DNA of 64,000 bases, from NCBI RefSeq assembly GCF_000013345.1, contig NC_007777.1, positions 1,302,001-1,366,000 of the forward strand, read 5' to 3'. Source of the stretch: Frankia casuarinae. GTDB lineage: Bacteria; Actinomycetota; Actinomycetes; Frankiales; Frankiaceae. A model generated the notes under the pieces. The model was not told where the DNA came from, searched no databases, and was given only the letters and a program-made list of their open reading frames with translations. Position numbers and translations under genes: made by a program. Below, in pieces: positions 28,564 through 46,569 of the stretch (position 1 is the stretch's first letter; each line of letters begins with the position of its first letter).

Positions 28564-29952
28564 ATGGTCGATACTGAGCGGACCACCTGGCCGTCCGAGC
28601 CGGTACTGCAGGTGGCCCAGCCCGCACCCGACCCGAGGCGTTGGTGGGCTCTCGCGGTCCTGCTCGTCGCCACGTTCATGGACCTGCTTGACAACAACAT
28701 CGTCACGGTGGCTATTCCGAACATCCAGCAGCATCTCGGGGCGTCGCCAACGTCCATCCAGTGGATGAACGCGGGCTATACTCTCGCCTTCGCTGTGATG
28801 CTGATAACCGGAGGTCGACTGGGAGATATTTTCGGTCGCAAGCGAATGTTCTTGACCGGTGTCGCCGGGTTTATGGCGGCGTCCGGAATGTGCGCGATTG
28901 CGCAGAGTCCGGAATTCCTCGTCGGCGCCCGGGTGGTCCAGGGGGGCGCTGCGGCCGTCATGGTGCCGCAGGTACTGGCGATCATCCACGTCAGCTTTGC
29001 TCGGGAAGAAGTCGGCAAGGTCGTCAGCCTATACGCGGGCATCGTGGGCCTGGCGATCGTCGCGGGACCGCTCGTCGGTGGTCTTCTGCTCCAGTGGAAC
29101 CCGTTCGGCCTCGAATGGCGCAGCATTTTTGCGGTCAACCTCCCCGTCGGCGCGGTAGCGTTGGTGGCAGTGTCGGCGTGGATGCGGGAATCCAGGTCCC
29201 CGAATGCTCGCCGGCCCGACGGGATAGGGATGATCCTCGTCGCCGTAGGGCTGCTGCTCGTGCTTTTTCCGCTTGTGCAGGGGCGCGAGCTGGGCTGGCC
29301 GATGTGGAGCATTGTCGCCATGGTAATCGCTGTCCCAGTGTTCGCGCTGTTCCTACGGTATGAACGGGAAAAGGTGCGCCGTGACGATTCGCCACTGTTG
29401 GCGCTGAACCTCTTCAAAACTGGCAGCTTTTCTGTCGGTGTCGGCACGCAACTGTTGTTCAGCTGCGTGCCGGCTGGATTCTTCATCACCTGGACGGTTT
29501 ATCTGCAGGGTGGTCTAGGCTGGTCGGCACTGCATACCGGTCTGACCACGATTCCATTCTCCGTCGCTGTTCCCGTGGCTGGCGGACTCGCGGTACGCTA
29601 CATTTTTCCGAAGTATGGCCGTCGCTGCCTCATGGTGGGAGTGGCGGTGATGACGTCGGGTGTTCTTTCCTACGTGTGGACGGCGCATCACTTCGCCACC
29701 ACCGTGACAGCATGGCATGCTGCCCCGTCTCTGCTGCTGATCGGTTCGGGCATGGGCCTGCTGGTCGCGCCACTGACCGGGATGATCCTGATCGATGTGC
29801 CGCCGCACGAAGCCGGCGCGGCCTCCGGAATCATCAACGCGACCGGCCAGCTTGGCGCGGCAGTGGGCGTCGCGCTGATCGGTGGGCTGTTCTTCTCCCA
29901 GGGCCTCGGCAAGTTTGCTGGTAAGCAGACTTTCGGCGTTGTGTGGGGCTTC
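28564..29952 (+). pseudogene. MFS drug exporter (DHA2, 14-TM), 5' part, split by ISAs1
   Basis: About 463 codons encode most of a DHA2-type major facilitator: the first transmembrane segment contains MDLLDNNIVTVAIPNIQ (antiporter motif D), then GGRLGDIFGRKRMFL (motif A), GARVVQGGAAAVMVPQV and GLAIVAGPLVGGLLL (motif C, antiporter signature). The protein is interrupted after VVWGF at 29952, where the ISAs1 left end (CAGTGGGGTTGCG) begins; a short foreign tail stops at 29979. The missing end is at 31261-31606. In its original form it would have exported the product of this locus under TetR control. Confidence 0.85.
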
Positions 29953-31260
29953 CAGTGGGGTTGCGTAGCGCGCTTCTGACGCGAGGCCGGGGGCGTCATG
30001 GGTGCGGGCACGGCTCCTGGAGATCATGGAGGTTCCTACACCGTCATGATCGTCTCGAGGTGCCATGCCCGCCGCACCAGTATTACCGCCTGCCCCTGTT
30101 CTCGATCGGCTGGCTGCCGTCGGCGCCGGCAACCAGCCTCCGTCGCCGGCGGGTCTGCTGGCGGTCTTCAACCAGCTACCGGACCCCCGGAAGCCCCGCG
30201 GCAGGCGGCACAGCCTGGCCGCTGTGCTGACGCTGGCGACCTGCGCGGTGCTCGCCGGGGCGCGGTCGTTCACCGCGATCGGTGAATGGTCCGCCGACGC
30301 CGGCCAGGCGGTCGCGGGCCTGCTCGGCGTCTCTCGAGTGCCCGAGGAGTCGACGTTTCGCCGGGTACTCGCCGCACTCGACGCCGACGCCCTGGATACG
30401 GCGCTGGGAGCATGGGCCGCCGCGGCGACCACCCCGCCGGCCGGGACGCGGCGGCGGCTCGCGGTCGACGGCAAGACGCTGCGCGGCTCCCGCACGCCTG
30501 ACAGTCCGGGCCGCCACCTGCTCGCCGCGCTCGACCACACCAGCGGTGTCGTGCTCGGCCAGGTCGCCGTCGACGCGAAGTCGAACGAGATCCCGGCGCT
30601 GCCCGTCCTGCTCGCCGACCTGGACCTGACCGATGTGATCGTGACCGCGGATGCTCTACACACCCAGCGACAGACCGCATCCTGGCTGGTCAGCCGGCAT
30701 GCGCACTACATCCTGACGGTGAAGGCCAACCAGCCGGCGCTATACGCCCAGCTCGCCGCCCTGCCCTGGCGCCGGGTGAAGACCGCCGCGCGCACCGTCG
30801 AACGCGGCCACGGCCGCCGCGAGCGGCGCACCGTGAAGACCACCGAGGTCCGCGCGGGACTACTCTTCCCGCACGCCGTGCAGGCAGTGCAGGTCACCCG
30901 CCGCCGCCAGCCGCTCGCCGACGGGCCGGCCACGACCGAGATCGTCTACCTTGTCACCAGCCTGCCGACCCACCAGGCCAGCCCCACGCTGCTGGCCACC
31001 TACGCCCGCGAGCACTGGCTCGTGGAGAACCGGCTGCACTGGGTCCGCGACGTCACCTTCGGGGAGGACCTCAGCCAGGTCCGGACCGGCCACGCTCCCC
31101 AGGTCATGGCCAGCCTGCGCAACCTGGCGATCGCGATCCTTCGCCTGACCGGCGCCACGAACATCGCCCAGGCAATCCGACACCACGCGCGGCGCCCCGA
31201 ACGACCACTAGAGACGATCAAGAGCCTTGCTTGCTAACCGACAACTTTGCCGGGGCCCTG
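29953..31260 (+). mobile_element. ISAs1-family element inserted in the MFS gene
   Basis: Boundaries come from the interrupted MFS gene: host sequence stops at 29952 and resumes at 31261. The right end TGCCGGGGCCCTG resembles the end of the other ISAs1 (TGCCGGAGCCCTG at 20.9 kb, reversed). Inverted similarity between left and right ends is weak, and I see no clean target duplication. Confidence 0.7.
30065..31237 (+). CDS. ISAs1-family transposase
   Basis: A 390-residue transposase, full family length: QLPDPRKPRGRRHSLAAVL, RRRLAVDGKTLRGSRTPDSP (first aspartate), DVIVTADALHTQRQTASWLV (second aspartate) and YAREHWLVENRLHWVRDVTF (glutamate). It is clearly diverged from the ISAs1 transposase at 20974-22188, so they are separate arrivals rather than copies. 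The frame is complete. Confidence 0.88.
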   Translation: MPAAPVLPPAPVLDRLAAVGAGNQPPSPAGLLAVFNQLPDPRKPRGRRHSLAAVLTLATCAVLAGARSFTAIGEWSADAGQAVAGLLGVSRVPEESTFRRVLAALDADALDTALGAWAAAATTPPAGTRRRLAVDGKTLRGSRTPDSPGRHLLAALDHTSGVVLGQVAVDAKSNEIPALPVLLADLDLTDVIVTADALHTQRQTASWLVSRHAHYILTVKANQPALYAQLAALPWRRVKTAARTVERGHGRRERRTVKTTEVRAGLLFPHAVQAVQVTRRRQPLADGPATTEIVYLVTSLPTHQASPTLLATYAREHWLVENRLHWVRDVTFGEDLSQVRTGHAPQVMASLRNLAIAILRLTGATNIAQAIRHHARRPERPLETIKSLAC

Positions 31261-34737: not shown

Positions 34738-35563
34738 CCCCTCCGAACCAGGAACAACCTTGCGCTCAGCTACCGTATCCTCACGTCCCGACGATTTCTC
34801 GCGGTCACGACAGATCGAGACTGGTTATCCCGCGAGGCTCCGGTGGACGCCGCCGCCCCTTCCGGCCCCGGACCGCCGCGTCTCCAGCACGCGTTGGAAT
34901 CCGGACAGTTCAGCGGGTCAACCGTCTTCGTAGCGGCCGGCATCTGGACAGTGCTGGCGCGCTGACCCTTGAGCACGGCGGGCCCGTCAGTGTCCTTGAA
35001 GACGGGAGGGCATCGACGGGTGCTGACAAGGAAGCCTGCCCAGATGGTCGTTGATCAGGCAGCATGCGAACCATCGACGGCGGACCGGCCCTCCGGGTGA
35101 CGCCCCTACTCGGTGATCTTCCTGGCCTCCGAGTGGAACATTCGAACTTCGCGGGCTCGGCGGACAGGTTGAGCTCGCCGGACCGGGCAAGCTTGGGACG
35201 ACGAGCCATCGTGGGTTGCGGAGGCTGTCCGGAGCGCAGCCACGGGGCAGATAGACCAGGGCCGTAGAGATCTGACGGTGATCTGACAGATGTTGCATAC
35301 ACAACAACAGTCAGATCGCCGTCAGGTCATTTTCGGCCCTGTGAGACCCTCCGTTGAATTGGCTTGCAGTCTCCGCCGGGTGTGGGGCAGCTGCACGTCC
35401 GGGCGCAGCGGCGATGAGAGCGTTCGTGGGCCTGTTCTGGCCAGTCCCGGGGTCCAGCGCCGTCTACCACCGCGCACAGGCGTAGGGGCAGGTGCCTTTG
35501 CCCCAACGCATGCCCGGAGCGCTGCCCAGCGGAGCTGTTTCCGAGCGTGGCCGTCTGCGCGGG
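34738..35563. other. 826-bp region without a supported gene
   Basis: No convincing gene on either strand. A minus-strand frame starting near 35215 with MARRPKLARSGELNLSAEPA looks like a protein N-terminus but soon degrades. The notable feature is the long hairpin at 35269-35328. The region separates the coiled-coil operon from the lanthipeptide locus and may be a scar of an excised element. Confidence 0.4.
35269..35328. repeat. 27-bp inverted repeat forming a strong hairpin
   Basis: Arms 35269-35295 and 35302-35328 match at 23 of 27 positions, two of the four differences being G-T wobbles, around a 6-base loop CATACA. Within each arm GATCTGAC-type octamers recur (two per arm), giving four related sites in alternating orientation. 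It could be a dimer-of-dimers operator, a terminator of the lanthipeptide operon (stop at 35564) or a transposon end pair. Confidence 0.65.
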
Positions 35564-36466
35564 TCATGTCTGTCCTGGCCTCGTGGCTGCGCCTTCTTGC
35601 TGGCGGGGTATGCCGCGGCGAAGAAGATGTGTGGCGCGTATGCGCAATAACCCCGCATGATCGATATCGAGGCCGGTCCCGGAGTGGACGGTGTCGAGTA
35701 GCTCGGCGATGACGGCCAGTTCGGCGTACCGGCCGCTCTCTGTGGAGAGTGCGTCTGCGAAACGCGCCTGAACCTGTGCGGCGAGCGTTGGCATGAACAG
35801 GCTGTGGCAGTAGAGGGTGGCGGCGTCATAGCCGGCGGGTGCCAGGCCCCAGCCTTCCCAGTCGAGCATGCAGAGGGTGGGGCCGCAGAGGTTGGCCCAG
35901 TGCAGGTCTCCGTGCGCGGTTACCCACGGTGCGGGCGAGGTGGTGGTGATCGGTTCGCCGAGAATCCTTGGCATGACGTCGTCGAGGTAGGACTGCTCGA
36001 TGGTGCGCCGGTCGGTGGAGACCGTGGCGAGGATGCGGAAGGAACGGCGCAGTGCCTGGAACCATTGCCCTTTCGGTGAGTCGGTGAGCCGCCGCGGCAC
36101 GGTCGTGACGGCGAGAGGTCGGACGTGGACGCGGTCGTATAGCTCGGCGCGGTAGTCCCAGCCGTCGTGGTGATGGTCGTGGATCGCGCGTAGCGCTGGG
36201 CGTGGGATGGATGCTGGCAGCGCCTGCTGTGCGGTGCGTCCGCCGTCCCAGAACGTGGTGATCTGCTGTCCGGCTTCGGTGGCGGCGATCCGTAGCCAGC
36301 CTGGGCTGTCGGGGGTCATTACCGGTCGGCCGAGGGTTCGTCCGGCGAAGCCCCACGCTTCCTCAGCCTGGGTCCGGTCGACCGTGACCCGGAGGGCGGC
36401 GCTGGCGCGCTCGTGCGCTGCGCGCATGCGGGTGACGGTGTCTGCGTCGTTCGGCGGCGGCCACAT
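35564..36466 (-). CDS. Aminoglycoside phosphotransferase (APH)-fold protein in lanthipeptide operon
   Basis: A 300-residue protein with the APH kinase core: VTAHGDLHWANLCGP (catalytic loop HGDLHxxN, about residues 190-204), CMLDWEGWGLAPAGYDAATL (metal-binding DWE, about 208-227). The N-terminal lobe (about 20-110) is kinase-like but lacks an obvious lysine motif. It is the last gene of the lanthipeptide operon, its start sharing one base with the preceding stop. APH-fold proteins are known both as antibiotic kinases and as tailoring or self-protection enzymes in peptide clusters; here a phosphorylating tailoring, regulatory or immunity role is inference. Start at the 36466 ATG; downstream frames reach 35564. 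Confidence 0.8.
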   Translation of the reverse strand: MWPPPNDADTVTRMRAAHERASAALRVTVDRTQAEEAWGFAGRTLGRPVMTPDSPGWLRIAATEAGQQITTFWDGGRTAQQALPASIPRPALRAIHDHHHDGWDYRAELYDRVHVRPLAVTTVPRRLTDSPKGQWFQALRRSFRILATVSTDRRTIEQSYLDDVMPRILGEPITTTSPAPWVTAHGDLHWANLCGPTLCMLDWEGWGLAPAGYDAATLYCHSLFMPTLAAQVQARFADALSTESGRYAELAVIAELLDTVHSGTGLDIDHAGLLRIRATHLLRRGIPRQQEGAATRPGQT

Positions 36467-37515
36467 CAGCGTGCCTGCGGCGTTAGCGCTTCGGGGAGTG
36501 CGGGAGCGCGGAGGATTGTCTCGCGCGCTGTGGCGGCGAGTACGCCCTGGGTCTCGGCATTCAGGCCGAGGCGGTTCCAGTGGAAGATCACATGGTGGCC
36601 GAGGACGTCGCGTAGCCCGCGGCGCAGGGTCCCGGCGTATGCGGCCTGGCCAAGGGCCCGACCGGCATTGTGAAAGGCGCTGGCCCAGATTCCCAGGTTG
36701 GCCAGCGGTCGGTCCGCGCCGAACAGGTCGCCTGCCGGGTCGGTGTCGGTGGTCAGCAGCCTGCGTAGAGCGGTGGCCAGCCGTTGAATTTCAGCAGCGG
36801 TGGGTGATGTTGCTGGTGGAGGGCGTAGGCGGCTGACACGGTTGAAGACGTCGCCGCGTTCGTACCAGTCCAGGCCCGCGGTGCGCAGCAGCGTGCCGAT
36901 CAACAGCATCGACAGTTCGCGGCGGCCGAGAGTCGGCGGGGTCCTGCTGGTGATCTCGCTGTGGATGCGGTCGAGGACGTGCCCGCTGTCAGCGGTGAAC
37001 AGCCGGTGCGCGACGTCGGTGCCGACCTCGCCGCCGAGGGCGTACTCCTCCGGCTCGTAGATCCCTTCCGCCCAGGTGGGGATCGTTCCGGCCGCGGTCA
37101 GGTCGTCGAAGGCGGAGCGGAGGGTGGCACGAAGATCCGCCACAGATTGGCCACTGGCTGGAGAGAGCCGTAGCCGCCAGTCGGGCGACTTGCGCACGAA
37201 CCACCAGGAGGCGACAGCGCCGGCGGCTTGGGCGTGGCGTAGGACAGGTGCCAGGTGGGTGGCTGCGACGGTCTCTGCGTCCGCTGGCTCGGGAAACGTG
37301 ACACGCACCTGGAACCAGGCAGCACCTTGGACTGCGAGCGCGGCGCGACCTGCCGCCTGGTAGGTGGCGACAGCTGCGGCGAGCTGGTCGGGAGGCAAGG
37401 CGGCATGGGCTGCCGCAGTGGGTAGCGGGATGCCGGCCAGCACCGCGAGTACGGCCTGTTCGGTGCCGATGTCTCGGCTGGGGACGGTCAGTGGATCAGC
37501 AGGCATCTGTCCCAT
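36466..37515 (-). CDS. Stand-alone SpaB_C-like (thiopeptide-type bacteriocin biosynthesis) protein
   Basis: A 349-residue protein of the TIGR03891-like/SpaB_C family: AWFQVRVTFPEPADAETVAA, APVLRHAQAAGAVASWWFVR, SPDWRLRLSP, then YEPEEYALGGEVGTDVAHRL and a helical end HVIFHWNRLGL. In class I LanB dehydratases this domain removes glutamate from glutamylated serine/threonine; as a separate protein it is the pyridine-forming cyclase in thiopeptide pathways. The LanB of this locus already contains its own C-terminal elimination domain, so this second copy must do something extra. It overlaps lanC by 28 nt, showing strict co-expression. Function beyond peptide tailoring is open. Confidence 0.82.
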   Translation of the reverse strand: MGQMPADPLTVPSRDIGTEQAVLAVLAGIPLPTAAAHAALPPDQLAAAVATYQAAGRAALAVQGAAWFQVRVTFPEPADAETVAATHLAPVLRHAQAAGAVASWWFVRKSPDWRLRLSPASGQSVADLRATLRSAFDDLTAAGTIPTWAEGIYEPEEYALGGEVGTDVAHRLFTADSGHVLDRIHSEITSRTPPTLGRRELSMLLIGTLLRTAGLDWYERGDVFNRVSRLRPPPATSPTAAEIQRLATALRRLLTTDTDPAGDLFGADRPLANLGIWASAFHNAGRALGQAAYAGTLRRGLRDVLGHHVIFHWNRLGLNAETQGVLAATARETILRAPALPEALTPQAR

Positions 37516-38705
37516 CCGGTGGCCGGTGCGCCGGTGGCGACGCTGTGGAGGACGAGGGCGATGCCGGCGTCTCCTTCGAGGAGCCCATCAGCCCGCCCGC
37601 TGCTCGAAAGGGCGCAGAGCAGGAGGGAAGCGGCGAGTGTCGGCAGGTGGCGGCTGAGGGTCTCGGTGGTGGCGTCGGCGGCGGCGCGGGCGACGGTTTG
37701 GTAGAGGCCTGCCCATCCGTGGCACAGTCCGGCTTCGGTGAGGTGGGCGAGTTGGGTGGAGTCGGTGAGGCAGGCTGCGAGTGCCTGTTCGGCGGCGTTC
37801 TGGCGGGTGGTGTCACCGGTGGCGATGCCGGCGAGTTGGAGGGCGCGGGCGATTCCGGGGGTGCCATAGCACCAGCTCGGACGGGCGGGGCCGGGCTGGG
37901 CCGGTCTCGCGGCCTGCTGATCGGCACGGGTGATCCACTGTGGCCAGGACGGACCGCTGGGGGAGTCGTGGCGCCATTGGTCATAGAAGGCGCACAGCGC
38001 GTTGATGGCGTTGGTCTGGCCGTGGACGCGTATCCCGGCGCGTGTGGCGAGCGAGAGCAGGGCCAGTGGGCCGGCGGCGCCGTGGGCCATGCCGAGGTTG
38101 GCGTGTCCACCGGCGAATTCGGCAGTGTTGCCCTGGGACGGGTCGTGGCTGCACCACCAGCCGGGGAGTTCCTCTCCGTCGAGGTTGAGAGGTGTGGTGA
38201 GGCGGACGAGGTAGGTGAGGATGCGGCCGAGGGCGTCGTCGCCGGGGGTGTGGGCGAGGAGGTGGGCGCCAATGCCGGTGAGCCCGCTGATGACGTCGTA
38301 CTCGGTGAACCGTCCCGGTTCCCCCTGGTCGATGCGGGCGTTGGCGGCGTCGACGAGGCGGTGGGCGATGGTGGCGACGGCCTGATCGAGCGCGGTGCGG
38401 GCGGCGGTGTAGCGGCGGGTCTGCCCGGCTGCGATGTGAACGGCGAAGGCGACCGCCGGGGCGCCGGCGTAGAGCGAGCTGTTCATCGCCACGCTGAGGT
38501 GGCCGGAGATGGCTGCGGTCAGCCACGCCTGGACGGGCTCCCAGCGCTCGGCGCTGGCGTGCGCTCGCTCGGCGTGCAGGAGGGCGATGCCGGCCGCTCC
38601 GTCGGCGAGCGACTGCGCAGTCTGCCCGAGTTCTCTGGGGGATGGGACGGTGAGGCGGGTGGCAAGGCTTGCTGCGGTGGCGGCGGCCTGATCGCAGGCG
38701 ATCAT
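37488..38705 (-). CDS. lanC: Lanthionine synthetase C (cyclase)
   Basis: A 405-residue LanC, usual length. The double alpha-barrel glycine motifs are visible (LADGAAGIALL, NSSLYAGAPAVAFA, GHANLGMAHGAAGPLALLSL) and the zinc site is complete: WCYGTPGIARAL (about residue 275) and LCHGWAG (about 327). LanC catalyses Michael addition of cysteine thiols onto dehydrated serine/threonine to form lanthionine rings. The start overlaps the LanB stop by 4 nt, so the two are coupled. The 461-codon plus-strand frame over the same DNA is a mirror of the GC-rich third positions, not a gene. Confidence 0.92.
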   Translation of the reverse strand: MIACDQAAATAASLATRLTVPSPRELGQTAQSLADGAAGIALLHAERAHASAERWEPVQAWLTAAISGHLSVAMNSSLYAGAPAVAFAVHIAAGQTRRYTAARTALDQAVATIAHRLVDAANARIDQGEPGRFTEYDVISGLTGIGAHLLAHTPGDDALGRILTYLVRLTTPLNLDGEELPGWWCSHDPSQGNTAEFAGGHANLGMAHGAAGPLALLSLATRAGIRVHGQTNAINALCAFYDQWRHDSPSGPSWPQWITRADQQAARPAQPGPARPSWCYGTPGIARALQLAGIATGDTTRQNAAEQALAACLTDSTQLAHLTEAGLCHGWAGLYQTVARAAADATTETLSRHLPTLAASLLLCALSSSGRADGLLEGDAGIALVLHSVATGAPATGWDRCLLIH

Positions 38706-41700
38706 GAGACGGTCGCTTCCGTGGTCGCGAGGGCGCGTGCGGCTGTGGCTCGGGCGAGGGCGATGCAGGTCTGTTCGGCGGCGGGGTTCAGGCCGAGGGT
38801 TCGGACGACGTGCAGGTGCAGCAGCGAGGCCAAGGCCTGGTCAGGCGGGCGCTGCGCGGCGAGGGCGTCGCGGTAGGCGGCCAGTGCTGTGGCCCGCGGC
38901 TGCCAGGCGGACAGCACGGCGTCCGCCCCGGGAACGGCCCGCAGATGAGCGAAGCTATCTGCGGGGTTGGCCAGGTGCAACGTGGTGGTGCGTTCCGCCC
39001 GTGGGACGCGGGCAGGCTCGTGGGGCAGCACGTCACGAAGCCACCGCATGCCGGTGGACAACGCGCCGGTGAAGGCGATGGCCATATCGACCAGGCCGGC
39101 GACGGTGAGCGCTCCGACGGACAGGCGGGCGCTGGCGGCGAGACGGCGGGCGGCGAGGGCAGCGGCGGAGTCGGCGGAGAAGACGCCTTCGGCGGCGGTC
39201 ATCGCCGGGCCATAGCCGTAGCGGCCGGTCTCCGGTTGGTAGGTGTCGAGGTGAAGGTGCGACAGCAGTCCGGCCTCGCGCTGTACCGCAGCCCAGGTTC
39301 CCAGCCGCGTGGCCGCCAGCCCGTAGCCGCCAGGTTCGTTGACGGCGAGGCGTAGCCGCAGGTGGGGCTCGGTGTCCCGGTACGGCAGGAACCACCACGC
39401 GGGCGGGTCGGGCCACGCGTCCAAGAGGTCGTGGAGGCGGGCGAGGAGATCGGTGGCCCGGTCGGGGTGGCCGTAGAGCCGGGCCGACAGCCACGGCGAC
39501 ACACCGGGTAGCTGGGCATCCGACCGAGCAGCGGGCACGGTTGCCGCGAGGCGCTCCGGTGCCGGCCCCGGCAGGGGTGCGGCGGTGGTGGCCAGCGGGA
39601 TGACCAGTTCGTGGGCGTGGCCGGCGAGCCAGCCGAAGGCTTCTGGAGCGGCGTCCTCGTCGAGCCGGGCGGAGCCGTGCCGGTGCAGGTGATCGCGTAG
39701 CAGGGCGAGATGGGCGTCGACGTGCAGATCGAGGCGCAATCGGTTGTCGGTCTCGACGAGCTGGACCCGCGTGGGCACTGGGATCGTGCCGCCCCAGCGG
39801 GCCAGCGCCTCGCGCCATTCCTGCGCCGACTCGGCGCGGCTGGGCAGGTCGGCAGCTGTGAGATTCCAGTGGGCCGGGGCGAGCACGGTGCGCCGATGGA
39901 CGAGTCGGGGAAGGAACGGCAGCCCACCGGCAGCGCCCCAGGAGAAGGGGATGGAGACGGCGACGCGGGCGGTGGGTAGCTCGCACAGGAACCGTGTCAG
40001 CGGGTGGGTGTGGTACTGGAACTCCACTGCGTGCGCGGCGGACGGCTCGACGAGACGCCGGTCGGGCAGCGACACCAGATACAGCCCCTCAGCGTCGGCA
40101 CCGACAGCCAGATCGGCTGGACGCAGCACGCACGGACCGGCGTCGTGATGCTCGGCAAGCGTGATCACCGTGTCGGTGAGCCGCGGTGATCGGGCCACGC
40201 CGACGGTGGCTGCGGGAAGCGGCGGACAGGACACCTGCGCGGCTGTCGCGCCGGCCCGCATGGTGGGTAGGGCGGCGTAGATGTCGCGGAACCGGTCGAA
40301 GGACGCGGGGTCGAGCAGGTGCAGGAAGCGGCCAGTGGTGGTTGCGGCGGCGCGTCCGCCTCCGGTCACACGCAGGGTGAACAGGCCGCGGGACAAGGCC
40401 GGCAGGTCGTTGGCGTGGACCTCGGCGATGAGTTCGGCGTGCGGTGGAACCCGGTCCGGTGCGGTGTCGCCGGCCAGAGCCGCGATGGCGGCGTCGCCGA
40501 GGCGTGCCTCGAGCGCGCCGTCCAGGGCCGCCCGCTGCGTGAGGGCGGCCAGGCGCTGATCGCGGGCCGCGTTCCCGCGGGGGCGGTGGGAGCGTGTGGA
40601 GCCGCGGAAGGTGGCGGGCAGACCGAGGCCGGTGTCAGGGTTGACGGCTTCCAGCAGTGGGACGAGGGCGGCGGGACCGTAGCGTTCCAGGAAGGCTTCG
40701 TGCCAGTCCGCCCACTCCGGGGGAACGGCGGTCGGCCCTGTGAGCCGGGCGAGCGCCCGAGCGGCGGCCCCAGCCTCCTCGGCGACAGCCGCCGGCAGGA
40801 CCACGTCCGCGTTCAACACGAGGCCTACGTCGAGGTCCGGGTCAGCGCTGGGAACAACGCGCCGTTGAAGCGTCTCTGCCTGCGTGCGCAGCGTGCGACG
40901 GTGCGAGGCGGAGCGCGTGTTGTCGTGGTGGGCGAGCAGGTCTTGTAGGTCGCGGATCACGTTGAGACGGCCGGCGAGTGGGGGCAGGTCGTCAATCCGG
41001 GCTGCGGCCAGCTGGTCGGCGACTTCACTGAGTGGATCGGTGATGGTTGTCGCCGGGCGTAGGGGCGTGTGCAGGAACCGGCGGCGGACCAACTCGATCA
41101 CCATAGTCTCGATCTGGCCGGCGGCGGGAGCGGGTTTGTCGGCGGCGAGGCGAGCGACCAGCTCGGGGACGGGCAGCGAGCTGACCGCGTGGAGCAACGC
41201 CGCCTCCACAGCCCGGGTGCGGCGCACCGACACCTCGACCACCGACTCCGGCCCGGCGTCGTCGCCGGACCGGGCGACAGGGCCGATGAACAGTCGGTCG
41301 CCTCGGGCGACTGGTATTCCGTCGGCGGTGACCGGCAGCCGTCGCAGCAGCGTGTCGAACGCTTCCAGGTCGTCGGCGAGCGCGGCGAGCCAGGCGCCGC
41401 CCGGCCGGGCGTGAACCCGATGGTCGTCGCCGAGCCGGACGCGGGCCCGCGGGCCGAAATCCGCGGGCCCGACACCGGCGAACAGGCCGAATGGAGTGGC
41501 GCGCCCGGTCATCCGCAGTACGTAGCGGGCTGTCGCAGTGACAGCCCGCCGGGCGGTCCGCCGATCGTGGCACTGCCCGTCGAAGACCGACGCGACCCGC
41601 GCGGCCAGCGACGGGCTGGCGAGCCTCATCGCGTCGGCGAACACGGGCCGTGCCCAGATGTCCCGCAGCCAATCCGTCCAGCCGGCTACGGCGCCGTCGG

Positions 41701-41794
41701 TGGTGTCGTCGAGGTCTGGCCATGGGGGCAGGTCGACATCGGTGGGGACCACGGCCATCCGTAGCAGCGGAACGTCAAGGCTGCGGTACATCAC
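38702..41794 (-). CDS. lanB: Class I lantibiotic dehydratase (LanB)
   Basis: A 1030-residue full-length LanB. The N-terminal glutamylation domain (about 1-720) opens with SLDVPLLRMAVVPTDVDLPP and contains RATPFGLFAGVGPADFG; the C-terminal SpaB_C elimination domain (about 765-1030) has SPWLSARLYGHPDRATDLLA, WWFLPYRDTEPHLRLRL and WQPRATALAAYRDAL. LanB uses glutamyl-tRNA to glutamylate serine/threonine of the precursor, then eliminates glutamate to give dehydroamino acids. It starts 21 bp after the precursor stop with GAGAGGTG as ribosome binding site. No sign of damage. Confidence 0.93.
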   Translation of the reverse strand: MMYRSLDVPLLRMAVVPTDVDLPPWPDLDDTTDGAVAGWTDWLRDIWARPVFADAMRLASPSLAARVASVFDGQCHDRRTARRAVTATARYVLRMTGRATPFGLFAGVGPADFGPRARVRLGDDHRVHARPGGAWLAALADDLEAFDTLLRRLPVTADGIPVARGDRLFIGPVARSGDDAGPESVVEVSVRRTRAVEAALLHAVSSLPVPELVARLAADKPAPAAGQIETMVIELVRRRFLHTPLRPATTITDPLSEVADQLAAARIDDLPPLAGRLNVIRDLQDLLAHHDNTRSASHRRTLRTQAETLQRRVVPSADPDLDVGLVLNADVVLPAAVAEEAGAAARALARLTGPTAVPPEWADWHEAFLERYGPAALVPLLEAVNPDTGLGLPATFRGSTRSHRPRGNAARDQRLAALTQRAALDGALEARLGDAAIAALAGDTAPDRVPPHAELIAEVHANDLPALSRGLFTLRVTGGGRAAATTTGRFLHLLDPASFDRFRDIYAALPTMRAGATAAQVSCPPLPAATVGVARSPRLTDTVITLAEHHDAGPCVLRPADLAVGADAEGLYLVSLPDRRLVEPSAAHAVEFQYHTHPLTRFLCELPTARVAVSIPFSWGAAGGLPFLPRLVHRRTVLAPAHWNLTAADLPSRAESAQEWREALARWGGTIPVPTRVQLVETDNRLRLDLHVDAHLALLRDHLHRHGSARLDEDAAPEAFGWLAGHAHELVIPLATTAAPLPGPAPERLAATVPAARSDAQLPGVSPWLSARLYGHPDRATDLLARLHDLLDAWPDPPAWWFLPYRDTEPHLRLRLAVNEPGGYGLAATRLGTWAAVQREAGLLSHLHLDTYQPETGRYGYGPAMTAAEGVFSADSAAALAARRLAASARLSVGALTVAGLVDMAIAFTGALSTGMRWLRDVLPHEPARVPRAERTTTLHLANPADSFAHLRAVPGADAVLSAWQPRATALAAYRDALAAQRPPDQALASLLHLHVVRTLGLNPAAEQTCIALARATAARALATTEATVS

Positions 41795-41815
41795 GCACCT
41801 CTCAGCGGCGGAGGT

Positions 41816-41986
41816 TCAGTTCTGCTTGCAGCTGGTGCAGGCCGACGAGCAGGTCTTGCCGCAGTTGTCGCTGGTGGAGCGCAGCAGCTCGGGGATGACG
41901 GGTCCGCCGTCGACGATCTCGACGTCTAGGTCGTAGTCGCCGGCGAGGGGGAGCGGGGCCGGGGCGGTTGTGTGGGCAGGAGTCAT
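41816..41986 (-). CDS. FxLD-type class I lanthipeptide precursor
   Basis: A 56-residue gene on the minus strand, ATG at 41984-41986, stop at 41816-41818. GGAAAGG about 8 nt before the ATG is a good ribosome binding site. The leader (about 1-36) contains YDLDVEIV at 18-25, the FxLD leader motif with tyrosine for phenylalanine, and PVIPELL at 29-35. The core (about 37-56) has four cysteines (42, 46, 50, 53) and serine/threonine at 37, 38, 39, 45, 47, 48, 51 and 52, enough for up to four rings, and one Asp-Asn pair (40-41) that could be the methyltransferase target. It lies between lanB (21 bp) and the FxLD methyltransferase (48 bp), same strand. Confidence 0.9.
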   Translation of the reverse strand: MTPAHTTAPAPLPLAGDYDLDVEIVDGGPVIPELLRSTSDNCGKTCSSACTSCKQN

Positions 41987-42034
41987 GGCGATGCCTTTCC
42001 TTCGGAAGGGGTGGTGAACGCGTCGCTGTGTTGG

Positions 42035-43201
42035 TCAGGACCAGCTCAGGACGACGATGCGGTGGCGCTTGGCGATCACCCGGCCGGGCGGAAGTGCCTC
42101 TGCCGGAGTTGTGGCCGGCCAGACGCTGATCGTGGCCGGCGACGCGTCGCGGTGGGTTCGGTTCCAGGCCTGGACCTGCGTGACGACCAGGCCGGCGAGG
42201 CGGGCGGCGTCGGGCCCGTGGGCGTAGGCGCCGAACTCGTAGGTGTCGTCGCCGTCCTCGACCTTTCGCAGGGTGAGGTAGGCGAAGCTGTCCGCTTCCA
42301 CGGCGGTGGGCGTGCCGATCGGGGAGACGGGGTCGACGAGCTCTCGAGCGGTCGGGGAACGGGCGCGGGAGAGCAAGCCGTAGTCGTCGAGGCTGCTGGC
42401 AAGCCACAGCAGCAGCCCGTCGAACGGTTCCATCCCGCCGAACCGCACTCCCGACCACGCCTCGACCCGCGGGGCGAGTAGCGCGGCCCGCAGTGCGGCG
42501 GCGTCGAGTTCGGGAGCCTGCTCGTCGAACCGCAGGCCCACGTCGGCATCGTGAAGCTGGACGAGGCGTTCGGGATGGGCGCCGTCGCCGCGCACGGGCA
42601 CGAAGCCGGCCATCTGATGGTCGAGACTGACCAGAACGCCGTCGCGGGGGGTGAGCGCGACCGTCCGGCTCAGCCCCCGCATCCGCAGGGGAACGACGAT
42701 CCGGCCGTCTGGGGCGAGCTGATCGGTCCAGGCGGGTGGGATGTCCCAGGCGCCCGCGGTGACGATGATCCGGTCGTAGGGCGCGTGCTCGGGGACGCCG
42801 TGCTCGGCGTCGGCCAGCACGACGTGGACCTGGTCGTAGCCTGCCGCTGCGAGGCAGTGGTGGGCTCGTTCGGTGACGTCGGCGTCGATGTCCATGGTCG
42901 TCACCGCACCGGTCGGGCCGACGAGTTCCGCGATCAGGGCGGCGTTGTAGCCCCCGGAGCCGACTTCGAGGACCCGCATGCCGGGGCTGATCCCGGCCTG
43001 TTCGAGCATCGTGGCCTGCAGCCAGGGAGCGGAGACCGAGCTGACGGTGATGCCGTGCTGGTCCTGCTTGGTCCGCACGATGTCGTCGGCGTAGGCGTCC
43101 TGGAGCGACACCTCGGGAGCGAACAGGTGCCGCGGCACCGCGCGGAACGCGGCCTCGACCTCCTTCGTTTTGATCGAACCCGCCGCGACGAGGTCATCCA
43201 C
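42035..43201 (-). CDS. FxLD-system protein O-methyltransferase (PIMT-like)
   Basis: A protein of at least 388 residues. The N-terminal half is the protein L-isoaspartate methyltransferase fold: FRAVPRHLFAPEV, SAPWLQATMLEQAGISPG, MRVLEVGSGGYNAALIAELV (SAM site, about 75-95), PYDRIIVTAGAWDIPPAWTD. The C-terminal 170 residues (LLLWLASSLDDYGLL, PTAVEADSFAYLTLRKVEDG) are specific to the FxLD family (TIGR04364, recalled). Related lanthipeptide enzymes methylate a core aspartate, leading to aspartimide or isoaspartate. GTG 43201 is the only start in frame, yet clear family-like residues (PEPTGKHAPEDLRARL) continue 25 codons upstream to a TGA; the ribosome binding site GAGAGGAG and TTG near 43279 are in another frame, suggesting a one-base frameshift at the 5' end. 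Confidence 0.85.
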   Translation of the reverse strand: MDDLVAAGSIKTKEVEAAFRAVPRHLFAPEVSLQDAYADDIVRTKQDQHGITVSSVSAPWLQATMLEQAGISPGMRVLEVGSGGYNAALIAELVGPTGAVTTMDIDADVTERAHHCLAAAGYDQVHVVLADAEHGVPEHAPYDRIIVTAGAWDIPPAWTDQLAPDGRIVVPLRMRGLSRTVALTPRDGVLVSLDHQMAGFVPVRGDGAHPERLVQLHDADVGLRFDEQAPELDAAALRAALLAPRVEAWSGVRFGGMEPFDGLLLWLASSLDDYGLLSRARSPTARELVDPVSPIGTPTAVEADSFAYLTLRKVEDGDDTYEFGAYAHGPDAARLAGLVVTQVQAWNRTHRDASPATISVWPATTPAEALPPGRVIAKRHRIVVLSWS

Positions 43202-43317
43202 GAGGCGGGCCCGCAGATCCTCAGGCGCGTGCTTCCCCGTCGGCTCCGGGCGGTCGATGATGCCCGTGCGCGTCGCTCAACACCGTTCTCCTCTCGCGAT
43301 CGTCGGATGGTGGGGTC

Positions 43318-44188
43318 TCAGCCCCAGGTGATCAGGAGCTGGGCTGATGGTTTCGTGAGGAGCCGTCCGGCCGGCGCCGAGGCGCGGCCGGCATCGGTGG
43401 GGTAGACGCGGATGGTGGGGTCCGGGCCACCGCGCCGCTCGGCGTCCCACACGCGGACGTCGTGGGTGAGCAGGTCCGCGAGCCGGTACCGGTCGGGGCC
43501 GTACGCGACAACCCCGATCTCCACGCCGGTCCCGCCCGTCGGGGTGAAGGCCAGGAAGGCGAGGCTGTCGTCCGACCAGCAGGCAGACACCCCGGCCGAC
43601 GCATCCGCAGGCAGTTCGGCTCCTGCGGATGCGTCGGTGCCGTGGAGCCGGCCGTAGGTGGGCTGCACGGTGGCCAGCCACAGGTCCAGGCTCGGCAGGT
43701 CATCTGCGGAGCCGGTCGTAGGGGGCGCGGAGCGGGAACCCGAAGTACCCGTCGTTGATCAGTGCCGTGACGTCGGTGTAGCCGGCTTTGTCCAGGCAGG
43801 CGTGGGTGCGGTGGACTACGGACTGGTCGATGTCGATGGTGGTGACGTGGCCGGTTGGCCCAGTCAGCTCAGCCAGCAGCGCCGCGGTGTAGCCACCGGA
43901 ACCGATCTCCAGGATCCGCTGGCCGGGTTCGACCCGGAGCTGCTCGAGCGTCGCCGCGACGGTGGAGGGCCGCGACACCGCGCTGAGCGGTGCCCCGTAG
44001 ACATCCCATTTCGTGACGACGGCGTCGTCCTTGTAGGCCTCCTCGGTGCCGGCGTCGGGCAGGAACAGGTCCCGGGGCACGGCCCTCAACGCGGCTACGA
44101 CCGGGGCGGAGACGGGCTCCTTCGCCAGGACAAGGTCGACCATGGCCGTGTGCAGCAGCGCGATCGACGCCTGCGTGGAAGCAGGCAT
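43318..44188 (-). pseudogene. Second FxLD-system methyltransferase, internally deleted
   Basis: A diverged paralogue of the preceding gene. From ATG 44188 the frame encodes the PIMT fold (VSAPVVAALRAVPRDLFLPD, VEPGQRILEIGSGGYTAALL, APYDRL) and stops at about 43700. The C-terminal FxLD domain follows in another frame (DLPSLDLWLATVQPTYGRLH, then SDDSLAFLAFTPTGGTGVEI) to 43318. Compared with the intact gene about 130 residues between the SAM domain and C-terminal domain are missing and the junction near 43705 is out of frame. It is therefore probably non-functional, unless the 163-residue SAM domain works alone. It overlaps the DUF397 stop by one base. Confidence 0.75.
43596..43637. repeat. 16-bp perfect inverted repeat inside the broken methyltransferase
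   Basis: CCGACGCATCCGCAGG (43596-43611) and its exact reverse complement (43622-43637) enclose a 10-base loop. It encodes a repeated ADASAG within the C-terminal fragment and has no counterpart in the intact paralogue, so it looks inserted. Confidence 0.7.
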
Positions 44189-44397
44189 CACGCCACCTCG
44201 CCGAGCAGGTCGTCGTACTCGCCCCGCTTGACCGCACGGACGAAGTCCCCGAACGCGCCGGGGGTGGTCCGCACCGACGGGCCCAGACTCGACCTGATCA
44301 ACACACGGTGCCCGTCGAGGGCGACTTCGACGGCATCGGGCACCGTCGGGTCGAGCGTGGACGGGCGCCGCCATCGTGGGACGGCCGGGACAGGCAT
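44188..44397 (-). CDS. DUF397-domain protein
   Basis: A 69-residue protein from ATG 44397: PDAVEVALDGHRVLIRSSLG and FGDFVRAVKRGEYDDLLGE match the short DUF397 fold, with the final aromatic/acidic EYDDL. DUF397 proteins typically accompany XRE regulators in actinomycetes and are thought to modulate them; an XRE regulator is encoded divergently 300 bp away. The next gene starts within its stop codon. Longer upstream frames look non-coding. Confidence 0.7.
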   Translation of the reverse strand: MPVPAVPRWRRPSTLDPTVPDAVEVALDGHRVLIRSSLGPSVRTTPGAFGDFVRAVKRGEYDDLLGEVA

Positions 44398-44620
44398 GCC
44401 GGTGGGCGCAACAGACACGGGTTCCTCGAAACGATGCGATCGGTGTGGACGGGTGGAGCCCGCCGAACCCGGGCCGCACGACTCGGCCCAGGCCCGGCGG
44501 GAGCAGAAGCGGCGACACGACACGACCCGGGGTTCATCCGCCCTGAGCTGGTGGAACGGACGGGACCGGATCGGCGTGTTCACCGCGCGCAGCACCCATG
44601 ACACACTGCGCCCAAACGGA

Positions 44621-44666
44621 GCAACAGAACGCAACGGCTCGTTGCGTGCATGCAACAGCTCGTTGC
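44621..44666. promoter_or_regulatory. Tandem dyad operator GCAAC-N5-GTTGC x2 plus half site
   Basis: GCAACGGCTCGTTGC (44631-44645) and GCAACAGCTCGTTGC (44652-44666) are two 15-bp dyads, 21 bp start to start (two helical turns), with an extra GCAAC half site at 44621. They lie 36 bp before the XRE gene's GTG 44702 and upstream of the divergent DUF397/methyltransferase genes. Binding by the XRE protein is the natural reading. Confidence 0.75.
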
Positions 44667-44701
44667 ACCCACCTGCGAAGGCGTCGACGGGGAGGCCGAA
44701 G

Positions 44702-45994
44702 GTGCAAGCTGGTCAGCGAAACGACGCACTCGCCAACCTGGCCGATCTGCTGCGGACACTGCGTGATCAGCATCGGACCAACAACAGCCGGCTCGAAGCC
44801 CGCACCGGCTTCAAACGCCAGCAGATCTCTCGGGCCGTCAACGGCCAGGAGATCCCGTCCGCGGACCTCGCGGACGCGCTGGACACGGCGTTGGCCGCAG
44901 CGGGAGCCATCCGGCGATTGCGGGACGAAGCTGTCAGGGAGAAGCGGGCCCGGGACCTGGGGCTCGACCCGAGCAGGCAGGAGGAACCCGTGGACGCCAA
45001 CCGTCGGCAGGCGTTCGAACTCGCCGCCGCGAGCCTCGTCGCCGCCCAGATGTACCGGGAGTGGACCTCGTCCGCCCCCGATGTGCTGACCCTCGACGAG
45101 ATCGACGACGCGATCAACGCGCACACCGTCGCGTTCACCGTCGAACCGCACCAGCGGCTCGCGCCGAAGGTGTGGAAGACGTGGAAGTCGGCGCACCACC
45201 ACCTGATGAACGGCAGTGGCCGGGCCCGCCCGCAGACCAGGCTCACCGTCGCCGCCGGCTACGCCTCCTACATGCTGTCGCGGCTGTCGTTCAACCTCGG
45301 AGACACCCTGGCTTCGCGCCGGTTCATCCGCCTCGCCGAAGACCACGCGAGCCAGACCGACGACGTGGTGCTGACCGCGTCGGTCGGGGAGATGGTGACG
45401 ACGCTGGCGTTCTACGGCCGCCGCTACCAGGAAGCCGCCGTCTCGGCTCGGAAGACCGCGGTCGTGGCGGACAACCCGTACACCCGGGCCCGGATCGCCA
45501 GCTACGAGGCGCGGGCCCTTGGCGCGCTCGGCGACGTCGAGGGCACCCGGGCGGCGTTGAACCGGATGCGCACGTCGGTCACGGACCTGCCGCTGCAGCC
45601 CGGGATCAGCCCGTTCGGCCCGGCCGCCGCCGAGATGATGTACGCCGGGGTCCTGACCCGGATCGGCGGTGGCGTCGAGGCCGAGCCGATAGCCCGAGCC
45701 GCGCTCGCCGCCTACGAAGGAGGCCAGGCGGGCGGGTTCGAGGACTACGGCCACGCGCTGCTCGCGCTCGCGGCCAGCCTCACCGCCCGCGAACAGCCCG
45801 AGATCGACGAAGCCGCGACCATGGCCGGGAAGGTCGTCGACATGCTCGACACCCGGCCCACCGCCTCGGTCTCCGACCGGGTCGCAGAGATCGCCATAGC
45901 GTTCACCGGCCACCCCACCGTCGAACCCGTCCGTGACTTCTGGGACCGCTGGCAGGCACGCCCCCGCCTCGAACTGACCACGGGCCAGGCGTGA
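44702..45994 (+). CDS. XRE-family regulator with TPR-like domain
   Basis: A 430-residue regulator. GTG 44702 follows GGGGAGG (44690-44696 area) at good spacing; the frame is open far upstream but without coding character. The HTH is at about residues 5-60 (LANLADLLRTLRDQHR, RLEARTGFKRQQISRAVNGQ, PSADLADALDTALAA). The rest is a TPR-like helical repeat (TRLTVAAGYASYMLSRLSFN, FIRLAEDHASQTDDVVLTAS, ARIASYEARALGALGDVEGT), as in regulators that respond to peptides or small signals. It is divergent from the lanthipeptide operon and probably controls it through the tandem dyads. Its stop overlaps the acetyltransferase gene. Confidence 0.88.
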   Translation: MQAGQRNDALANLADLLRTLRDQHRTNNSRLEARTGFKRQQISRAVNGQEIPSADLADALDTALAAAGAIRRLRDEAVREKRARDLGLDPSRQEEPVDANRRQAFELAAASLVAAQMYREWTSSAPDVLTLDEIDDAINAHTVAFTVEPHQRLAPKVWKTWKSAHHHLMNGSGRARPQTRLTVAAGYASYMLSRLSFNLGDTLASRRFIRLAEDHASQTDDVVLTASVGEMVTTLAFYGRRYQEAAVSARKTAVVADNPYTRARIASYEARALGALGDVEGTRAALNRMRTSVTDLPLQPGISPFGPAAAEMMYAGVLTRIGGGVEAEPIARAALAAYEGGQAGGFEDYGHALLALAASLTAREQPEIDEAATMAGKVVDMLDTRPTASVSDRVAEIAIAFTGHPTVEPVRDFWDRWQARPRLELTTGQA

Positions 45995-46569
45995 CCATGA
46001 CCCTCCACTACGGAACCCCGACCGTCGTCACCATCCCCACCGTGCTCACCGAACGGCTGGTGCTGCGCGGCTGGAAGGTCGTCGACCTCGACCCGTACGC
46101 GGCGATGAACGCGGACCCGGAGACGATGCGCTACCTGGACGGCACGTTCGACCGGGCCGGCACCGAGCGGCTGGTCACCCATCTGATCGGCATGTGGGCG
46201 ATCCGCGGGCACGGCATGTGGGCGGTCGAGGACCGGGCCAGCGGGGAGTTCCTCGGCCGCGCCGGCACCTACTTCGCCCAGGGCTGGCCAGGCGTGGAGG
46301 TCGCGGTGTCGATCCGCCGCGACCGCTGGGGCCAAGGCCTGGGCACCGAAGCGATCACGGCGGCGCTCGACTTCGGGTTCGCCCACCTCGACGTCGACGA
46401 GCTGATCACCGCAACGCATCAGGAGAACGCGGGCATGAACATGATTGCCCGCAAGCTCGGGATGACCTTCCGTGAGATCGCCGACGTCGGCCCGTGGAAG
46501 GCGAACAACGTCCACGCGATCAGCCGTGCCTCCTGGGCCGCCAACCGACCCGAGGAGAGCAAAGGCTGA
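45991..46569 (+). CDS. GNAT acetyltransferase (RimJ/RimL type)
   Basis: A 192-residue N-acetyltransferase: TERLVLRGWKVVDLDPYAAM, WAVEDRASGEFLGRAGTYF, VEVAVSIRRDRWGQGLGTEA (acetyl-CoA loop R-x-x-W-G-x-G-L/A) and the late QENAGMNMIARKLGMTFREI. RimJ-type enzymes acetylate N-terminal amines of proteins or small molecules. GTG 45991 overlaps the XRE stop (GTGA); ATG 45997 is an alternative. It may acetylate the lanthipeptide or confer resistance; co-transcription with the regulator is the only link. Confidence 0.85.
   Translation: MTMTLHYGTPTVVTIPTVLTERLVLRGWKVVDLDPYAAMNADPETMRYLDGTFDRAGTERLVTHLIGMWAIRGHGMWAVEDRASGEFLGRAGTYFAQGWPGVEVAVSIRRDRWGQGLGTEAITAALDFGFAHLDVDELITATHQENAGMNMIARKLGMTFREIADVGPWKANNVHAISRASWAANRPEESKG

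Follow-up and report, generated by a model that had tools for sequence, protein, structure and literature searches.

The window, a 64,000-nucleotide stretch of Frankia casuarinae (NC_007777.1, positions 1,302,001 to 1,366,000; coordinates below count from its first letter), carries what is very probably, at close to nine chances in ten, a coi-type class I lanthipeptide ('lanthimiditide') operon of the FxLD family, whose enzymes are predicted to act along the pathway proposed below. The genome is that of a strain which we take to be CcI3. The locus is an ordinary member of the FxLD/coi-olv family, and its one new point is that it belongs to a small, kinase-bearing variety of that family.

The precursor and its operon

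The genes of the locus and their neighbours are listed by position in the window.

35564–36466, minus strand: APH-fold kinase-like protein (PF01636, predicted fold)
36466–37515, minus strand: stand-alone SpaB_C protein, predicted syn-glutamyl lyase (TIGR03891, 216 bits)
37488–38705, minus strand: LanC cyclase (PF05147, WCYG and CHG motifs)
38702–41794, minus strand: full-length LanB dehydratase with glutamylation domain and anti-type elimination domain (PF04738, PF14028)
41816–41986, minus strand: FxLD lanthipeptide precursor, 56 residues (translation, TIGR04363)
42035–43201, minus strand: intact PIMT-like O-methyltransferase with a C-terminal extension (LanSA/FxLD methyltransferase; TIGR04364, PCMT domain)
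about 43310–44150, minus strand: remains of a further FxLD methyltransferase gene, split into two pieces that lie in different frames and lack the middle (TIGR04364 pieces, blastn)
44738–45994, plus strand: divergent NsdA-like HTH/TPR regulator (NF053720, 73.9 bits, just under the cut-off of 75)
45991–46569, plus strand: GNAT acetyltransferase at the edge of the block shared with Protofrankia (block comparison)

The precursor reading frame translates to MTPAHTTAPAPLPLAGDYDLDVEIVDGGPVIPELLRSTSDNCGKTCSSACTSCKQN, with the leader DYDLDVEIVDGG and a core written here as ...RSTSDNCGKTCSSACTSCKQN; by eye, a AAGGAAAGG stretch lies 5' of its ATG. As an earlier note made from the letters had described it, this short frame encodes 56 residues with a YDLD leader, four cysteines (positions 42, 46, 50 and 53), eight serine or threonine residues in the core and an Asp-Asn pair, D40-N41. 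The same note's assignment to FxLD lanthipeptides with a PIMT-like methyltransferase is borne out by the NCBIfam models. The precursor matches TIGR04363 ('FxLD family lanthipeptide') at 60.6 bits against a cut-off of 30 (E 1.1e-16), a profile that has matches in none of 14 control genomes, and the methyltransferase matches TIGR04364 ('methyltransferase, FxLD system') at 532 bits against a cut-off of 320; the latter profile has matches in all 14 controls, over its cut-off in none. The first position of the leader motif holds Tyr and no literal Phe; the model permits other residues there, and we keep the precursor in the FxLD family because TIGR04363's own cut-off is passed despite the Tyr. The description of the peptide as uncatalogued-looking has to be given up, since this curated model exists and matches far above its cut-off, and three further precursors of this kind occur in the genome.

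Features that seem unusual in this precursor are common among its relatives. From the T-x-D-x-C motif to the end, the cysteines number four in 26 of 89 parsed precursors (three in 52, two in 11), and the residue after the motif's Asp is Asn in 29 of the 89 (Gly in 49, Thr in 7, others in 4); Gly is described as usual at this position, with Thr, Asn and Asp also found (PMC13001092). Among 93 distinct precursors the leader motif is FxLD in 52, WxLD in 8, YxLD in 6, YxLN in 5 and other in 15, with 7 unparsed, which makes 11 of 93 with YxLD or YxLN, the 7 unparsed counted in the denominator. TIGR04363 has matches in 27 of the 35 genomes of the window's family; the window's own genome has four precursors, five methyltransferases over the TIGR04364 cut-off, and four long LanB matches plus fragments. 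A near-identical precursor occurs in three genomes from three genera of the family, counted among the 44 of 62 TIGR04363 rows that were read with locus sequence. Those 44 come from 48 rows taken up, the window's own included; for the other four no locus sequence was retrieved, and two of them were added later as L216 and L217. The core is the same in Protofrankia coriariae, where the gene differs by six synonymous codon changes and a single non-synonymous one, in the leader. It is near-identical in Parafrankia colletiae, where six changes are synonymous and five non-synonymous, two of the latter in the core (S47A and N56D), with one codon unreadable.

The operon content and the hallmarks of the enzymes can be read directly. 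The LanB, LanC, SpaB_C and APH-like genes all lie downstream of the precursor on its strand, and their ends overlap. LanB matches PF04738 (674 bits) and PF14028 (137 bits), keeps the equivalent of Arg826 (NisB numbering), and aligns over residues 53–1017 of 1030 with PDB entry 5ehk ('Lantibiotic dehydratase', E 1.6e-70), which we take to be MibB. LanC matches PF05147 (148 bits); its WCYG and CHG motifs, which supply the zinc ligands of LanC, are in place in the alignment with 8byk, and NisC (2g02) is also matched. The PIMT structures 1jg1 and 1dl5 are among the structure matches of the methyltransferase. A full-length LanB and a separate LanC beside a precursor rich in Ser, Thr and Cys define a class I lanthipeptide locus. 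The note had called LanB, LanC and the methyltransferase intact, and we agree: the reading frames are open and the family matches span their length. Its statement that the locus encodes no transporter or leader protease agrees with our result, none having been found among the Pfam-scanned reading frames around it. An MFS gene (28564–29979) lies past two transposase genes, outside the block common with Protofrankia. According to the part of PMC9486935 used here, the coi and olv clusters encode no protease either. The earlier description had passed over the SpaB_C lyase gene, the APH-like kinase gene and the broken second methyltransferase.

Predicted maturation of the peptide

The stand-alone SpaB_C protein is predicted to be a syn-glutamyl lyase, because it carries both sequence marks reported for such enzymes, stand-alone ones included: replacement of Arg826 by a hydrophobic residue and of a Tyr by Lys (PMC9486935). 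In NisB, the mutants R786A, R826A and H961A glutamylate without eliminating (PMC4979651). Our alignment, drawn from FxLD loci, comprised 69 C-domains of LanB proteins and 65 stand-alone ones, where 'stand-alone' denotes a reading frame with the C-domain and no match to the LanB N-domain, so that a few may be pieces of broken LanB proteins. All 69 LanB C-domains have Arg at the position aligned with NisB Arg826, against a single one of the 65 stand-alone domains (L064), which is probably such a piece. For the second mark, 49 of the 69 LanB C-domains carry Tyr, and Lys is present in 63 of the 65 stand-alone domains; we infer that this column corresponds to the published position (PMC9486935). 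The window protein has Ala at the first position and Lys at the second. A pyridine-forming or other new role had been raised as a possibility for stand-alone SpaB_C proteins (PMC7268733); we dropped it for this protein, which bears both syn-lyase marks of the later work. The predicted extra syn-glutamyl lyase is the trait of the coi type, and it sets the locus apart from the olv type, which is defined by having no extra glutamyl lyase.

In the proposed pathway, LanB would glutamylate Ser and Thr residues of the core and then eliminate glutamate, the stand-alone lyase would take over elimination at one or more positions, and LanC would close the thioether rings. Gapless mapping to CoiA1 suggests the rings T38-C42 (enclosing S39, D40 and N41), T45-C50, and C46 with S52 or T51, while C53 is perhaps joined to S37. 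The equivalent of CoiA1 Thr57, the proposed site of syn-lyase dehydration, is Ser52 here; at a Ser the two modes of elimination, syn and anti, lead to one and the same product, so this equivalence does not point to the target of the lyase in the window. D40 falls in the family's T-x-D-x-C motif, which is that of LanSA-type clusters (PMC13001092), and an Asp in this motif together with a PIMT homologue with a C-terminal extension is what characterizes lanthimiditides. The PIMT-like enzyme would methylate D40 in the closed ring, leading to an aspartimide and on to isoaspartate, much as in OlvA, where the methyl ester gives an aspartimide that is hydrolysed to isoAsp or Asp (PMC13001092). The mass shift of +14 that the note offered as a check fits the methyl-ester step of this sequence, but it is incomplete: because the ester passes through the aspartimide to isoAsp or Asp (PMC13001092), an OlvA-type end product has no net mass change.

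Two characterized systems frame this proposal. The coi cluster of Streptomyces coelicolor A3(2), which yields mCoiA1, has in common with the window LanB, LanC, a PIMT-type methyltransferase, an extra syn-glutamyl lyase, a similar precursor and the lack of a protease. It differs in that CoiSA is a fusion of lyase and methyltransferase, whereas the two are separate in the window; in that its precursor has Thr57 where the window peptide has Ser; and in that it encodes CoiH, of unknown function, with no APH kinase mentioned in the part of the source used here (PMC9486935). The olv cluster of Streptomyces olivaceus (OlvA/OlvSA) shares the precursor type, LanB, LanC and the methyltransferase, and its ring Asp is converted; it lacks the extra glutamyl lyase that the window has (PMC13001092, PMC9486935). 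As of 2022, no native product of coi- or olv-type clusters had been reported, according to the part of PMC9486935 used here.

The second methyltransferase and the history of the locus

The methyltransferase remnant lies upstream of the operon on the same strand. At the same place in Protofrankia coriariae (L092) and Parafrankia colletiae (L093) the second methyltransferase is full-length, 43% and 42% identical, respectively, to the intact enzyme of the window. The blastn breakpoints at the remnant differ by 335 bases, fewer in the window than in Protofrankia and Parafrankia, and since the difference is the same in both comparisons, one deletion accounts for the damage. This deletion could be taken to mean that the locus is decaying and makes no product, one of its two methyltransferases being already lost. 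We consider decay very unlikely: the remaining genes of the operon are open, the core protein sequence is unchanged relative to Protofrankia, and the intact methyltransferase is of the kind that a Micromonospora locus (L094) has as its only one, at 67% identity. The broken second methyltransferase set against the full-length ones of two relatives offers a natural comparison for the function of two-methyltransferase loci.

The block at 35218–46567 is shared with Protofrankia at 93% DNA identity over 35218–43711 and 96% over 43709–46567, and two transposase genes lie at 30–33 kb of the window. This shared block and the transposase genes, together with the near-identical precursor in three genera, suggest that the locus was transferred between genera. 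A megablast search of 35500–44500 against a plasmid collection returned three records with short matches only. The NsdA-like regulator was considered as a marker of kinase-bearing loci and rejected: matches to it lie beside 8 of 89 FxLD loci and are strong in three, the window and its two near relatives. A wide neighbour cluster was a product of loose linkage in the grouping.

Marsh et al. (2010) described in Frankia sp. CcI3 three clusters (I–III), each of which combines two O-methyltransferase genes with LanA, LanB and LanC; in clusters I and III lanA had gone unannotated until then, and cluster II contains Francci3_1820 (PMC3091789). The window locus is most likely cluster I, as it comes first in order, at 1.34 Mb, and locus-tag spacing puts cluster II at 2.16 Mb. 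It shares with cluster I the unannotated lanA and the two O-methyltransferase genes; the lyase type, the broken methyltransferase and the kinase are not discussed in the part of that paper used here (PMC3091789). Elsewhere in the genome, the 2.16-Mb locus (L042) has a second, shortened precursor-like reading frame (NPLMDPEYELNLRLVDAG...) beside its intact precursor. A clear FxLD precursor (L043, 2393823–2393927, 57.9 bits) lies in a cluster at 2.39 Mb that may be cluster IV of the survey, listed there with LanB and LanC and without LanA (PMC3091789). At 5339211–5340386 (L045) a lyase-like sequence adjoins a methyltransferase sequence; the 19.9 kb read there gave no match to LanB, LanC or a precursor, and the pair may be an orphan or a single fused gene of the CoiSA type. 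Fragments of LanB and methyltransferase genes scattered at about 4217645–4223097 are probably the decayed cluster V of Marsh et al.

The kinase gene and the ring sequence

The last gene of the operon encodes a protein with an APH-type kinase fold, as judged from its predicted structure. Its PF01636 score, 23.2 bits, is exactly the gathering score; it keeps the motifs HGDLHWAN and LDWEGW, and all 25 aligned sequences have the residues H185, D187, N192 and D202. Searches of the PDB with the sequence gave no match, either with a profile (E up to 0.01) or with the single sequence (E up to 1). An AlphaFold2 model built on the 25 sequences has a mean pLDDT of 91.4. Foldseek ranks TvaE with TvaLP first against the PDB (E 2.5e-6), closely followed by aminopropanol kinase (3.2e-6), LicA and APH(9). 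VIA-align places APH(4)-Ia first (Z 17.1, 3.3 Å, 245 aligned residues), with a chain of the lexapeptide LxmKY complex, taken as LxmK, at Z 15.7 (4.0 Å, 248 residues); APH(2'')-IIIa, macrolide kinases and corramycin kinase are also matched, and absence from either list does not count as exclusion. On this model, the structural ranking does not choose between a peptide and a small molecule as substrate. Assignment to the kinase-fold cyclases of the LanX/TvaE type is contradicted by the retention of all four residues in the 25 sequences, since that group has lost the canonical ones; TvaE and RosX lack them (PMC12291118). Class V kinases (CaoK, LxmK) share the APH family and fold with the window protein, which keeps the catalytic residues; class V dehydration uses LanK with the lyase LanY instead of LanB (PMC9486802). 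No HopA1/LanY lyase (PF17914) was matched in the whole genome, by a search that finds matches in 1 of 14 control genomes. The locus thus lacks the LanY partner of class V, and so no phosphate would be taken off by the class V route. Our literature search, which covered paper listings and passages of main text, turned up no report of an APH kinase in a cluster for a class I lanthipeptide. Four distant relatives of the kinase (L146, L150, L151 and L152) adjoin what by eye appears to be a cupin-type hydroxylase, L146 and L150 an apparent aldo-keto reductase too, and these possibly belong to another small pathway.

Presence of this gene follows the sequence of the first ring. All 11 sampled loci with a T-S-D-[N/G]-C ring that has no Cys two positions ahead of the Thr carry it, and none of the 144 other precursors has it alongside; to be counted, a kinase had to score above 200 bits and share the strand of the precursor. 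These counts exclude the duplicate loci L053 and L056 and eight precursors whose contigs end too soon. The first set held 85 usable precursors: six kinase loci, all T-S-D-N-C without the Cys, and 79 kinase-less precursors, none of that form and ten with C-x-T-S-D. A kinase profile search of 341 genomes of another family (f17) then gave 23 matches, of which 15 were fetched, two were already known and six were left out. Five of the 15 regions hold a whole FxLD locus, four with T-S-D-N-C and one with T-S-D-G-C; two (L239, L243) have lyase and kinase and no precursor within the stretch read, and eight have a kinase homologue without FxLD genes. Among 65 further kinase-less precursors of f17 the form occurs in none, and C-x-T-S-D in 2 of 25 and 7 of 40, one of the 40 (L302) being without a T-x-D-x-C motif. 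Kinase absence for these 65 is taken from the profile search, at E up to 1e-60 with seven candidates scored per genome. Some kinase-less f17 genomes carry a kinase on another contig. The pattern was refined after the first set, so that only the 40 later precursors were read once the refined form was fixed, with no exception among them. A simpler pairing, T-S-D-N-C only with the kinase, proved too narrow, as L240 has T-S-D-G-C with a kinase and L274 has C-S-T-S-D-N-C without one. On the opposite strand L207 carries an APH homologue of lower score (128 bits).

The gene holds a constant place, just downstream of the lyase in all 11 precursor-bearing kinase loci; its start overlaps the lyase stop by one base in the window and begins at the lyase's last base in Protofrankia coriariae. 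Mapped on a LanC tree of 80 loci, presence of the kinase requires four changes or more, two of them forced by well-supported branches. There are two independent contrasts of kinase and ring on supported branches (four on all); a sign test, which can reach 0.05 only from six contrasts upwards, is not significant on so few.

The kinase probably acts on the operon's own peptide, for tailoring or for self-protection, though its function we infer. It is possible, and we hold it tentatively, that it is a LanK-like peptide kinase that phosphorylates Ser39, or a neighbouring Ser or Thr, of the TSDN ring, the phosphate, without LanY, staying on or tuning the aspartimide step. The strict pairing with the ring, the kept catalytic residues, the absence of a LanY match and the likeness of class V kinases to APH proteins (PMC9486802) argue for this, as do the first Foldseek rank of a RiPP enzyme and the LxmKY chain among the VIA matches. 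The differences in rank are, however, tiny, APH(4) scores above the LxmKY chain, and TvaE itself lacks kinase residues, which makes fold likeness weak evidence (PMC12291118). The T-S-D cores without the kinase, each with a Cys two before the Thr (10 of 79, 2 of 25 and 7 of 40), also count against it, as do the small number of contrasts on the LanC tree and the other kinase-like reading frames within the stretches of nine loci without this gene (L052, L060, L062, L069, L180, L184, L191, L197 and L207), the latter from a loose motif scan that is incomplete, missing the window's own kinase, and some of whose matches are protein-kinase-like.

The top VIA matches, with APH(4)-Ia rows first, are drug kinases, and no transporter was found among the scanned neighbours inside the shared block; both would suit an enzyme that, in the way of aminoglycoside, macrolide and corramycin kinases, protects the producer by inactivating the product, whether mature or only partly made. 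We regard that role as doubtful, a tailoring enzyme giving strict pairing with one ring sequence equally well. We are likewise doubtful that the gene is unrelated to the pathway and carried along by descent. Its relatives turn up often, in 44 of the 393 genomes searched within the class at E up to 1e-20, and sit mostly in other settings, only L144 of 20 fetched regions having an FxLD locus, and the strong homologue L145 does not adjoin one. Against this stand the same slot after the lyase in two separately supported LanC clades and a start that overlaps or abuts the lyase stop wherever examined. The most specific form of the peptide-kinase reading, a hybrid FxLD branch whose class I LanB/LanC pathway includes a class V-like APH-fold kinase that phosphorylates the Ser before the Asp of the T-S-D-N ring, seems to us unlikely. 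If it were true, kinase, methyltransferase and ring formation would act on adjacent residues, and the product would carry a phosphoserine next to an isoaspartate. The pairing of the kinase gene with one ring predicts a modification of which we found no description among class I lanthipeptides, and it points to the residue that deserves examination.
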